64,000 nucleotides of DNA from Haloprofundus halobius. GTDB taxonomy: Archaea; Halobacteriota; Halobacteria; Halobacteriales; Haloferacaceae. Positions within the stretch are counted from its first letter, which is position 1, and every line of letters starts with the position of its first letter. The position numbers were made by a program, and so were the translations under genes. Positions 53,000-57,646 of the stretch are shown piece after piece. Where the stretch lies: positions 62,001 through 126,000 of the forward strand of contig NZ_CP083666.1 in NCBI RefSeq assembly GCF_020097835.1. The letters are read 5' to 3'. Below the pieces are notes generated by a model. It ran no database searches. It was not told where the DNA came from and was given only the letters and a program-made list of their open reading frames with translations.

Positions 53000-53441
53000 A
53001 CCACTTCCCGTGAACTCATAGGATATGTGTCTTTTCCCTGAGCGTGAGGGTTGCTGAAGTTCACGACGTATGTGATGGGTCAAGCGGCCGACCTGTGGGC
53101 GGGGCTGATGGTGTTTATTGGCTCTGTTGAAATCCTCGGAGAGTTACAGGCCAACCTGGTAGTACAACTGAATGCAGACCCTCCCAAAGTCACGGTTACT
53201 CGGTTCTCCTCGGGGACAAGGGCTACTCGACTGTCTCACACACAACCTCGACCAAACACTCCGATGTTAGATGCAGAGGAAGCGAGAACGACCTCGGCGA
53301 TCTCATCGGTGATTCTACCGGTTGCGTCGAGACGCACCGAGTACCGATTCAGGATTAGGCGATCAGGCGTCGCGAACTGCGGCATCATGAACACGGTCTG
53401 ACTAGCCAGCCCTTTCCCGCTGGAAACCGATGATATAGCCA

Positions 53442-54098
53442 ATGGCCACCGAGGCGACGTTCACGGTTTCGTCTGAGCAGTTCCCGCTAGGGACAGTGTT
53501 CAACCAACTGCCGGACGTAACGGTCGAACTTGAGCGTATTATCCCCGCGCAGGATGTGGTGATCCCGTACTTCTGGGTACGGGGTGCCCACGTCGATGAC
53601 ATCGAGAGTGAGTTCACCGAGCACCGGGGCGTGAAAGAGATTCGGTTCGTTGACTCCGTCGAAGACGAGTATCTGTTACGAGTCGAGTGGGCGCTGGACT
53701 ACGCCGACGTGCTAACCATATTGACGGAGACAGAGGTACCGCTCATTGAGGCCACTGGCACGAACCAGCAGTGGACGTTCGAGATCCGCGGCGACGATCG
53801 AAGCGACATCGCAGCCTTCCAACGGCGCTGTCGAGAGCGAGATATCTCGATCACGCTGACGGAGGTGCACGCGCTCACACCGGTTGAGACGGCGACCGAA
53901 GCCGCCCTCACCGACACCCAGCAAGAGACGCTGGTGCTCGCCCACGAGCGTGGCTACTTCGAGTCCCCGCGTGAGGTCACGATGGCAGATCTCGGTGAGG
54001 AACTCGGCATCTCACAGCAGGCCGTCGCCTCCCGCCTTCGGCGGGGGATCAAGCACGTCATCGGGAGTACGCTCTCCGCCATCACCGTCCGATCCTGA
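53442..54098 (+). CDS. Bacterio-opsin-activator-type HTH regulator
   Basis: A 218-residue protein of the Bat/HTH_10 class. An N-terminal sensor-like domain (residues 1-155, beta-rich: FPLGTVFNQLPDVTVELERI, ELRGDD-like blocks) is followed by the HTH_10 domain: ALTDTQQETLVLAHERGYFE, SPREVTMADLGEELGISQQA and VASRLRRGIKHVIGS. These regulators control light, oxygen or stress responses in haloarchaea; ligand and targets are unknown. It lies inside the inverted-repeat-bounded unit and reads toward the DUF7344-like gene. Confidence 0.85.
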   Translation: MATEATFTVSSEQFPLGTVFNQLPDVTVELERIIPAQDVVIPYFWVRGAHVDDIESEFTEHRGVKEIRFVDSVEDEYLLRVEWALDYADVLTILTETEVPLIEATGTNQQWTFEIRGDDRSDIAAFQRRCRERDISITLTEVHALTPVETATEAALTDTQQETLVLAHERGYFESPREVTMADLGEELGISQQAVASRLRRGIKHVIGSTLSAITVRS

Positions 54099-54167
54099 CT
54101 ATCAGGTAAAAACGGTTTGTATACTAAAAAGTCAGTATGAAGCCATCAGACGGCTGCATTAGTGATA

Positions 54168-54527
54168 ATGAGTCGGGATTCCATCGCCTTTGATTCGATA
54201 CTGAACCTGTGTCAGAACCAGCAGCGCCGGATCGTGCTTGCGATACTCGTAGCAGAACAGCGGTCGTTGACACTAGATGAGCTCACAAAGACCGTCTTTG
54301 AGTACAACCATCGTACCCCACTTACAGAGGTATCTGTGGACGTGCGAGCAGAGATTCGCCTCTCACTCTATCACGTCCACCTCCCAAAGTTGGCCTCGGA
54401 AGGGCTCATCAGCTTCGATTCAGACCGACAGCTCGTGGAACCGACCGAGCAGTTCGAGCAGGGACAGCCGACCGTGTCGACGATTCTTGATGCCGACCCC
54501 ACAGTCGAAGTGCCAATCGAACTGTAG
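54168..54527 (+). CDS. Haloarchaeal winged-helix protein (DUF7344-like)
   Basis: About 119 residues from ATG 54168 (GTG 54162 is an alternative). The helix pair DSILNLCQNQQRRIVLAILV, then LDELTKTVFEYN and VRAEIRLSLYHVHLPKLASE, and wing GLISFDSDRQLV match the family seen at 12691 and 16265. A TATA-like TATACTAAAA is about 50 nt upstream. It follows the Bat-type gene by 70 nt within the inverted-repeat unit, so both may be transferred together. Confidence 0.78.
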   Translation: MSRDSIAFDSILNLCQNQQRRIVLAILVAEQRSLTLDELTKTVFEYNHRTPLTEVSVDVRAEIRLSLYHVHLPKLASEGLISFDSDRQLVEPTEQFEQGQPTVSTILDADPTVEVPIEL

Positions 54528-54662
54528 TATTGACCAACCGCTCTCCCTCCCGTCCAGCGCCATGTTATCCATTGAAGCAACGATAGCAACGAACGAGACG
54601 CAGACTACCTAACGCCTATTTCAGCGACGAGAGTGCCGAACTACTAGGATTTCAACAGCGCC

Positions 54663-54915
54663 ACGCAGTTGGAAGTACTGGGAATCTTCAAACTCGAAGA
54701 AGGCGGTCTGATGGGGCGATTCGACCAGCCGTCCCGTTCGACAAAATCGAGATGCACATCGACGATCCGCTTCTCGATAACGTCGATGCGGACAGTACAC
54801 CCGCTAACGCGGACTGATTCACGTATCCGTCGTACAACAGAGTATATATACAGCGTTCGCCGCGCTCGCCGACGGACAAAAACGCTCATACCACCGCCCG
54901 CCAACACCCCGAGCA
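54663..54915. promoter_or_regulatory. Leader and promoter region of the UDP-glucose dehydrogenase gene
   Basis: No gene is supported. A short frame ending PFDKIEMHIDDPLLDNVDAD (stop at about 54818) may be the tail of a lost protein. A TATA box GAGTATATATACAG lies at 54840-54853, about 65 nt before the start at 54916, so this transcript probably has a leader. Confidence 0.4.
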
Positions 54916-56253
54916 ATGCGCGTCAGCATCGTCGGCAGCGGCTACGTCGGCACGACGCTCGCCGCCTGTCTCGCCGAGTTCGGTCACCGAGTCGTCGCCG
55001 TCGACATCGACGAATCGACCGTCGCCGACGTCGAGAACGGCGTCGCGCCGGTTCACGAACCGGGACTGGACGACCTGCTCGCTCGCCACGGCGGCGACCG
55101 ACTCCGGGCGACGACCGACTACGACCGCGTCCGCGACACCGACGTGACGTTTCTGGCGCTGCCGACGCCCTGCGACGCCGACGGCCGCATCGACACGGGT
55201 ATCATCGAAGCGGGCGCGCGCTCGCTCGGCGAGGCGCTCGCCGCGAAGGACGACACCCACCTCGTCGTCGTCAAGAGCACCGTCGTCCCCGGGACGACCG
55301 AGGACGTGCTCGCGCCCGTCGTCGCCGACGCCTCGGGGAAGACGCTCGGCGAGGACCTCCTCGTGGGGATGAACCCCGAGTTCCTCCGCGAGGGCAGCGC
55401 CGTCTCCGACCTCCAGCACCCCGACAAACTCGTCTTCGGCGCACGAGAGGAGCGTGCGTTCGAGCGCCTCCGAGAGCTGTACGCTCCTCTCCGTGACGAC
55501 AGCGACGACCACGACGACAGCGACGACAGCGACGGCGACCGAGAGCCCGAGACGCCGGTCGTCGAGACGGGTATCCGGGAAGCGGAGATGATAAAGTACG
55601 CCAACAACGCCTTCCTCGCCTCGAAGGTCAGCCTCGTCAACGAACTCGGCAACGTCTGCAAGGAGTTCGGCGTCGACGCCTACGAGGTGGCCGACGCCAT
55701 CGGCCTCGACGACCGAATCGGCGCGAAGTTCCTCCGTAGTGGAGTGGGTTGGGGCGGGAGCTGTTTCCCGAAAGACACGTCCGCGCTCGTCACGGCCGCC
55801 CGCGACGCGGGGTACGAGCCCGAACTGCTTGACACCGCCATCTCGGTCAACGACCGCCAACCCGAGCGCCTGCTCTCGCTGCTGGACGACCACCTCGATG
55901 TCGACGGCGCGCGCGTCGCCGTCCTCGGCCTCGCGTTCAAGCCCGGAACCGACGACGTGCGCAACTCGCGGGCGATTCCGACCATCGAGGGACTGCTCGA
56001 CCGCGACGCCTCGGTCGTCGCCTACGACCCCGTGGCCGCCGAGAACATGCGCGCGCACCTCCCGGATATCGAGTACGCCGACAGCGCCGCGACCGCTCTC
56101 GACGGCGCGGACGCGGCCGTCGTCGTCACCGACTGGGACGAGTTCGCGGCGCTCGACGACGAGTTCGAGGCGATGTGCTCACCCGTCGTCGTCGACGGTC
56201 GCCGCATCGTCACGCGGCGCGAGGGCATCGAGTACGAAGGGCTGACGTGGTGA
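54916..56253 (+). CDS. aglM: UDP-glucose 6-dehydrogenase (AglM-like)
   Basis: A 445-residue NAD-dependent enzyme oxidising UDP-glucose to UDP-glucuronate for N-glycan and exopolysaccharide synthesis. Rossmann motif [13 protein letters not shown] (4-16), [13 protein letters not shown] (151-163), catalytic Cys C283 in [10 protein letters not shown], and the C-terminal domain [18 protein letters not shown]. Residues about 193-212 are an acidic insertion ([17 protein letters not shown]) coded by a repetitive GACGACAGC tract, absent from most family members as I remember them. It should sit on a surface loop. Confidence 0.88.
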
Positions 56254-56410
56254 CCGCACTCCCGTGGACCCCGTTAGAACAGTCGACGGCGTCGACCACC
56301 GACTATCCGTGGCGAACGCGGACTCGTTCGAGACTCTCGGAATCGCCGCTCACCTCGACGAAAATTAGTGTCAGGTGGATATTTATACGTAATTGAACAC
56401 TCAATTCACC

Positions 56411-57646
56411 ATGGATCTCGACGAACTGCTCGAAGGATACACGGGCCGGACGCGAGAGGAGCTTACGGCGCACCACGACCGACCGGAGGATCTGGTCAAT
56501 CTTCTCGCGGAAGAGCTCGGAAACGACCTCCCCGAGGATTTTCTCACCGAAGTGACGAACGTCCGTCTCCATTCGGATACGATTCTGCTCTCGCTGGCCG
56601 ACCGACAACTGAAACACCTCCGATACACCGAGGAGATCGAACAGTCGGACGAGGCGTTCGTTCGGATGGACTTCACCGAACGTCCGGACGGTCACCCAGA
56701 CGAGTTCGAACACCGTGAGTTCAAGACGCCGACGGAGCACGCGTTCGACACCTGCACGGCCTGCGAGGGGTCACCCATCAGCGACTGTTCGTGCTGCGAT
56801 GCGACGGGTATCTCGGAGTGCGAGCGATGCGACGACGGGGCGGTGCCCTGTCGTTCCTGCGAGGGGACGGGGTCTCTCATGTGCCCGGTCTGTAAGGGCG
56901 ATGTGACCGTCGACTGCGAGACGTGCGACGGGGACGGACATCTGTCTCGGTCAGTACCGTGTTCGCCATGTAACTCCTCCGGGTCGGTCATGAGCCGCGA
57001 GAGCTGTACGAACTGTCAAGGGAAGGGGAGTCTAACCGACGCCGAAGGGGAGTCGGTTCGCTGTCCTAACTGCCGCGGCCGCAGCACCGTTTCGGTCACG
57101 CGGACGTGTACCTCGTGCAACGGTGCCGGCCAGCAGACGATTCAGAGCGGGTGCCCCGACTGTGCGATGGGCCGCGTCGACTGTCCGGAGTGTGACGACG
57201 GCGAGGTCTGGTGTCGGGTGTGCGAGGAGAGCGGTACCCGCGAGTGTCCGGACTGCGGCGGAACGACCGAAATTTCCTGTCAGAACTGCGACGGTGCCGG
57301 CACGCTCACCTGTGATATCTGCGAGGGCGACGGCGAGACGCACCAGTACGTCCTCGCTCACGACGCGTACACGGTGAAGAAAGGGGGTCACCAGTTCGGC
57401 TCGCTGCCCCACGGCATCGAAGCGGCCGACTGGGTGGAGTACGATGCCTGTCGTATCGAGCCCGAAGACAAGGTGGTTCTCCGGGAGGTCGTCCCGTCAG
57501 CCGCCGCGATTCGAGAGGTGAGATACGACTACGGCGAGCAGACGTTCAACCTCCGACAGATGGGCGGAGAGCTCTACTACACGCGGATTCCCGAACCGAC
57601 TCGAGAGGGGATTTTCAGTCGTCTCCGGAACCGGTTCACGGGGTGA
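56411..57646 (+). CDS. CXXC-repeat (DnaJ-type zinc-finger) protein
   Basis: About 411 residues from ATG 56411 (TTG 56393 is possible). After an alpha/beta N-terminal part of 110 residues, some 16 CxxC units in the style of the DnaJ CXXCXGXG cluster follow (CTACEG, CRSCEG, CPVCKG, CETCDG, CTNCQG, CPNCRG, CTSCNG, CPECDD, CQNCDG, CDICEG), binding perhaps eight zinc ions. A C-terminal domain of 100 residues has no J motif. Probably a chaperone or redox-type protein. Convergent with a J-domain gene, overlapping by 11 nt. Confidence 0.78.
   Translation: MDLDELLEGYTGRTREELTAHHDRPEDLVNLLAEELGNDLPEDFLTEVTNVRLHSDTILLSLADRQLKHLRYTEEIEQSDEAFVRMDFTERPDGHPDEFEHREFKTPTEHAFDTCTACEGSPISDCSCCDATGISECERCDDGAVPCRSCEGTGSLMCPVCKGDVTVDCETCDGDGHLSRSVPCSPCNSSGSVMSRESCTNCQGKGSLTDAEGESVRCPNCRGRSTVSVTRTCTSCNGAGQQTIQSGCPDCAMGRVDCPECDDGEVWCRVCEESGTRECPDCGGTTEISCQNCDGAGTLTCDICEGDGETHQYVLAHDAYTVKKGGHQFGSLPHGIEAADWVEYDACRIEPEDKVVLREVVPSAAAIREVRYDYGEQTFNLRQMGGELYYTRIPEPTREGIFSRLRNRFTG

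Follow-up and report, generated by a model that had tools for sequence, protein, structure and literature searches.

The 1,543-bp stretch bounded by inverted repeats within the window (the whole 64-kb stretch of Haloprofundus halobius DNA analysed here) very probably descends, by deletion of the transposase, from an IS5-family transposon with regulator genes as passengers. A transposase remnant inside the unit, a complete relative elsewhere and transposase-free copies with target duplications together point to a passenger-carrying insertion sequence (IS) which has lost its transposase and resembles mobile insertion cassettes (MICs).

The left end of the unit, GGCTCTGTTGAAATCCT, is located on the plus strand at 53120-53136, as determined by a motif search of window and genome, and a motif search placed the right end, GGCGCTGTTGAAATCCT, on the minus strand at 54646-54662, with 16/17 positions identical between the two. 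No other match at up to three mismatches occurs in the 64 kb (0.11 expected; two never arose in 100 shuffles), and the inverted repeat can be extended to 23 nt at 87% identity. The right terminal region (54605-54662, minus strand) aligned at 76-79% identity with terminal regions of other such elements (a piece of L168, and L177), and its part at 54605-54657 was 79% identical to another terminal region. Two intact genes, both on the plus strand, are enclosed by the ends: one for a Bat-type regulator of 218 aa (53442-54098) with BAT and HTH_10 domains (PF15915, PF04967), the other for a DUF7344 protein (PF24035) of 121 aa (54162-54527). The initial annotation had described inverted repeats around a Bat-type HTH and a DUF7344 gene, and coordinates, the 16/17 match and both domains were borne out. 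Its placement between genes for a sugar nucleotidyltransferase and a UDP-glucose dehydrogenase also agrees with the Pfam families of the neighbours, NTP_transferase (PF00483; 52271-53002, minus strand) and UDP-glucose/GDP-mannose dehydrogenase (PF03721/00984/03720; 54916-56253, plus strand). At 56393-57646, the window further encodes a cysteine-rich protein with weak similarity, below the Pfam cut-off, to the DnaJ zinc-finger domain.

The left part of the unit aligned with the intact element L168 in three pieces. At 53120-53205, the left terminal region and the beginning of an IS5-family transposase gene (ACTGAATGCAGACCCTCCCAAAGTC, MQTLPKSR...) showed 80% identity, an internal transposase fragment (LLGDKGY) at 53201-53226 was 85% identical, and the 3' end of the gene (CLTHNLDQTL) at 53230-53280 was 81% identical. 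All three are located on the plus strand, are collinear and amount to some 160 bp at 53120-53280, so that this part is a transposase gene shrunk by internal deletions. The earlier statement that no transposase is present inside the unit holds for a complete gene, as there are three fragments only, but not for remnants. In elements with GGCTCTGTTGAAATCCT ends, the transposase belongs to the IS5 family (NF033579) and the target duplication is 8 bp long; the transposases of L119, L158, L160, L162 and L168 scored 209-218 bits against NF033579, for which the cut-off is 140 bits. The window unit shares its 17-bp ends with these NF033579-encoding elements, indicating that it is IS5-derived. In its length of 8 bp, the duplication of the intact relatives may resemble that of the ISH1 group.

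A complete transposase-bearing relative was identified on plasmid unnamed2 of Natrinema caseinilyticum. In this 2,900-bp element (L119), the gene for an IS5 transposase comes first, followed in turn by those for a Bat regulator (74% identity with the window's), a DUF7344 protein and a HalOD1 protein; the sequence ATCTAGCC, present at either flank, forms an 8/8 target duplication. Halogeometricum limi has a copy (L203) with 96.6% identity over an alignment of 2,901 columns; the similarity begins at the left end and halts within a base of the right end, and the two sites are unrelated. No matching target duplication was found for this copy. A third copy in another genome is 98% identical over positions 185-2638. 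L119 and L203 carry both their own transposase and passengers, as expected for a transporter IS, which does not apply to the window copy.

Five further sites hold a member of the Bat-type regulator family between the same ends and show duplications of 7/8 or 8/8; a transposase is present at one of them. The transposase-free units measure 1,207 bp in Halegenticoccus soli (L073/L234; duplication 8/8), 1,310 bp (L074; 8/8), 1,493 bp in Halorussus ruber (L213; 7/8) and 1,445 bp on a plasmid of Haloterrigena sp. KLK7 (L118; 7/8). The left end of L074 also seems, by eye and by a short alignment match, to show a decayed transposase start. L118 holds the same two genes as the window unit, to which it is 79.7% identical at the DNA level, so that a proposed check, a search for this pair between these ends elsewhere, gave a positive result. 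When ends of different loci were paired as a control, none of 163 combinations yielded a duplication at 7/8 or better. The five sites and the near-identical copy of L119 at an unrelated site support the initial proposal of a non-autonomous transposon moving regulatory genes. The window's genome has the gene pair once more, on contig C4, 271 bp inside a like end and with a regulator of 84% amino acid identity; the partner end was not found there.

At 60 of 80 homologous regulator loci, no end in flanking orientation was detected within 5 kb up- or downstream (up to three mismatches), an end within 400 bp upstream occurs at only 8, and a transposase is present in only 1 of the 79 upstream regions examined. 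A DUF7344-like partner follows the regulator within 900 bp downstream at 35 of the 80. The small number of ends and transposases around the homologues indicates that the regulator pair occurs independently of such elements as well. Judged by these sequence comparisons it is a conserved unit in its own right, and its capture by the elements may be recent or repeated. A general scan of the 80 loci for any inverted repeat with a duplication returned 14 GG..CC-ended pairs versus 3-15 in six shifted controls and hence no excess; only two pairs, those with the 17-bp end, look real. Both regulators look selected when codons are compared, as dN remained well below dS: dS was 0.49-1.72 and dN 0.08-0.19 for the Bat gene (seven pairwise comparisons), and 0.48-0.63 and 0.14-0.18 for the DUF7344 gene (two comparisons), with dN/dS at about 0.11-0.29 over all nine.

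Related genomes lacking the insert, which the initial annotation had proposed to look for, were found: all five loci identified in the four other genomes of the genus (one genome with two loci) are empty. The gap between the aligned neighbours is about 62 to 164 bp in these relatives versus some 1.9 kb here, and the extra block (approximately 53037-54903) exceeds the unit itself. The left flank (53037-53119) does not align to the same-genus relatives, and a comparison of 53030-53119 with plasmids gave no match. Outside the right end, about 150 bp at 54670-54821 (plus strand) are what remains of the 3' part of an HVO_A0114-type plasmid regulator gene, with 81% identity to C3:74671-74823; genes of this type occur on many haloarchaeal plasmids, and the best plasmid matches to the right flank start 3-4 bp past the right end. 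The sequences directly flanking the unit, TGTTTATT and ACGCAGTT, agree at 2/8 positions and thus do not form an 8-bp target duplication. The missing duplication points to a later rearrangement at this site and, as the right end abuts the plasmid-type 3' end, suggests that the unit likely arrived within a block of about 1.87 kb.

The ancestral form would have consisted of a 17-bp end, a DDE transposase (NF033579), the Bat-type HTH_10 regulator, the DUF7344 and HalOD1 genes and a second end, and would have generated an 8-bp duplication. Internal deletions would then have left some 160 bp of end and transposase gene with both regulators intact, and further movement may have occurred in trans by a related transposase recognising the shared ends. 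The element may first have inserted into the HVO_A0114-type gene of a plasmid, and a piece comprising the element and part of that gene may later have been joined into the chromosome. Direct transposition into the sugar-nucleotide gene pair probably did not happen. The only transposase of the group found in the window's genome is a partial match on contig C3 (45% identical), near which there is only a 4-mismatch resemblance to such an end. Since no close cognate transposase was found in this genome, the unit is most likely immobile now, with its regulators presumably kept by selection.

It has to be considered that two solo ends of different elements flank, by chance, a regulator pair that arrived otherwise; the initial annotation had also named two solo ends, as a product of IS-mediated rearrangement. 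The absence of a target duplication at the window site would fit, and does show a later rearrangement; solo ends are also common in the window's genome, and most homologous regulators occur without ends. However, start, middle and 3' fragments of the transposase are followed in order by the cargo and by a right end of the kind found on transposase-bearing elements, and in Haloterrigena KLK7 this gene pair likewise sits between such ends, flanked by a 7/8 duplication. The arrangement of left end, transposase remnant, cargo and right end is that of intact elements, which makes chance flanking improbable. A functional non-autonomous transposon that inserted directly between the two sugar-nucleotide genes would explain the empty locus in the same-genus relatives and the intact ends and cargo, but is very unlikely: the target duplication is missing, the genome has only the one distant, partial group transposase, and both flanks look foreign (some 83 bp on the left, the plasmid HVO_A0114 3' end on the right), by which direct insertion is largely refuted.

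The ends had also been described as IS6-type, and the terminal GGC.CTGTT indeed resembles IS6 ends, and IS6 elements likewise make 8-bp duplications. However, 30 loci of IS6 (NF033587) were inspected in the family, and wherever the ends could be read they were of the GGCACTGTCTAGTTAAG or GGCGGTGTTCAGATAAG type; no IS6-transposase element bounded by GGCTCTGTTGAAAYCCT was seen among them, whereas elements with the window's end encode an IS5-type transposase and the remnant within the unit is IS5-type as well. With neither IS6 ends nor an IS6 transposase, membership of the unit in this family was rejected, and an IS6-type non-autonomous element is exceedingly improbable. In the window's genome, no match scored above the IS6 family cut-off; degenerate IS6 transposase fragments are located at C2:23882-24459 and C3:93082-93264.

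The transposase-deleted IS5-type element of the window belongs to a widespread end family. The exact end GGCTCTGTTGAAAYCCT occurs in 118 of 148 family genomes, while the reversed pattern gave 0 matches in all 148; gene cassettes without a transposase are often what such ends enclose. The window's genome has 26 ends at up to two mismatches versus 0 for the reversed pattern; at least one of these (C1:2214377) sits in coding sequence and looks like a chance match. Twenty regions taken from the matches shown in the exact-end search comprised 17 inverted pairs (ends more than 150 bp and at most 5 kb apart) and one wrongly oriented pair, besides two MITEs of 125 bp. Target duplications at 7/8 or 8/8 were present in 11 of the 17 pairs. 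An IS5-family transposase is encoded in five of these (L158, L160, L161, L165 and L168); the matches in L161 and L165 were taken from genome coordinates, and the longest open piece of the L161 transposase is partial. In five others, long open frames of a different kind and no transposase were noticed: L154 (BrkB-like), L155 (luciferase-like), L156 (no Pfam family), L157 (alpha/beta hydrolase) and L164 (pectate-lyase-like, below cut-off). L167 is a 178-bp element, also with a 7/8 or 8/8 duplication. Six pairs (L152, L153, L159, L162, L163 and L166) lack such a duplication, although L162 holds a transposase. The end pairs of L159 and L166 were rejected as single units, as one end of each is part of a 125-bp MITE that has a separate 8/8 duplication. 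MITEs of 125 bp with the same 17-bp ends and 8/8 duplications (L169, L170, L159, L166) occur in several family genomes. L165, a 3,276-bp element with an 8/8 duplication, encodes two further long open frames besides its IS5-type transposase, by eye one lipoprotein-like and one oxidoreductase-like, and represents a larger passenger-carrying IS.

End-bounded units were also observed elsewhere in the window's genome. L042 (C1:2187824-2192800) is an apparently transposase-free cassette of 4,977 bp with genes that, by eye from their translations, are stress-protein-like, Trk-type transporter-like and dehydrogenase-like; the 9-bp sequence ATTTATTAA flanks both sides, with no match in a strict 8-bp register. 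L041 (C4:33724-35484), a unit of 1,761 bp with a 7/8 flanking repeat (GAGAAAGT/GGGAAAGT), holds a 223-aa gene without assigned kind, and no transposase was noticed.

A total of 100 distinct ends from 76 loci, a sample biased by how the loci were fetched, was classified by simple patterns. The inner motif near GTGCTGAATACAGAG.G.GTAT occurs in 35 of them; 8 are transposase-side ends, among them the left end of the window unit (53120-53205), 15 are ends of 125-bp MITEs and 4 belong to the type that closes transposase elements on their far side. The other 38, including the right end of the window unit, fit none of these patterns. It is quite possible, if not quite probable, that haloarchaea share a very large and largely undescribed set of transposase-free cassettes which have in common a single type of 17-bp end, with a recurrent motif some 20-40 bp further in, and which all depend in trans on one lineage of IS5-type transposases; the window unit would be a decayed member of this set. 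The candidate cassettes reach up to about 5 kb, with regulators, a transporter, a stress protein, a dehydrogenase and a hydrolase as cargo, and would constitute an open cargo system moving operons between archaea. A single IS5-type end system would transport paired transcription regulators of archaea, and apparently many genes of other kinds, from replicon to replicon and from family to family, and its decayed cassettes are easily overlooked in annotation. The concrete end motif can now be used to map cargo exchange across haloarchaea.

In open-licence literature on such haloarchaeal cassettes (titles and starts of abstracts), no description of this end family was found, which is weak evidence of absence, and the string GGCTCTGTTGAAA gave unrelated matches only. 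The category of the unit is already known, and novelty may lie in how common and how diverse in cargo this single end system is. MICs, MITEs, solo inverted repeats and transporter ISs are established categories, as outlined in PMC3129680, and transposase-free mobile repeats (MITEs, PATEs, SMRs) have been described in outline for Haloquadratum (PMC3119063). The window unit has passenger genes between IS ends and no functional transposase and, by its sequence, would correspond to MICs, sketched as IS ends around non-transposase genes that are presumably moved in trans (PMC3129680); it differs in its IS5-type ends, its archaeal host and the visible transposase remnant. The Natrinema and Halogeometricum element, with transposase and regulators between its ends, corresponds to a transporter IS, that is, an IS with passenger genes in the outline of PMC3129680, whereas the window copy has lost its transposase. 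Transposase family, ends and the 8-bp duplication of the intact relatives are shared with the IS5-family NF033579 group, but the regulator-carrying element bears genes unrelated to transposition. The Haloquadratum MITEs, PATEs and SMRs are likewise transposase-free, mobile and haloarchaeal, and the MITEs have the ends and the duplication length of a transposon; however, the MITEs in the account of PMC3119063 do not exceed about 520 bp and for the most part have no coding sequence, whereas units of the window type carry whole genes.
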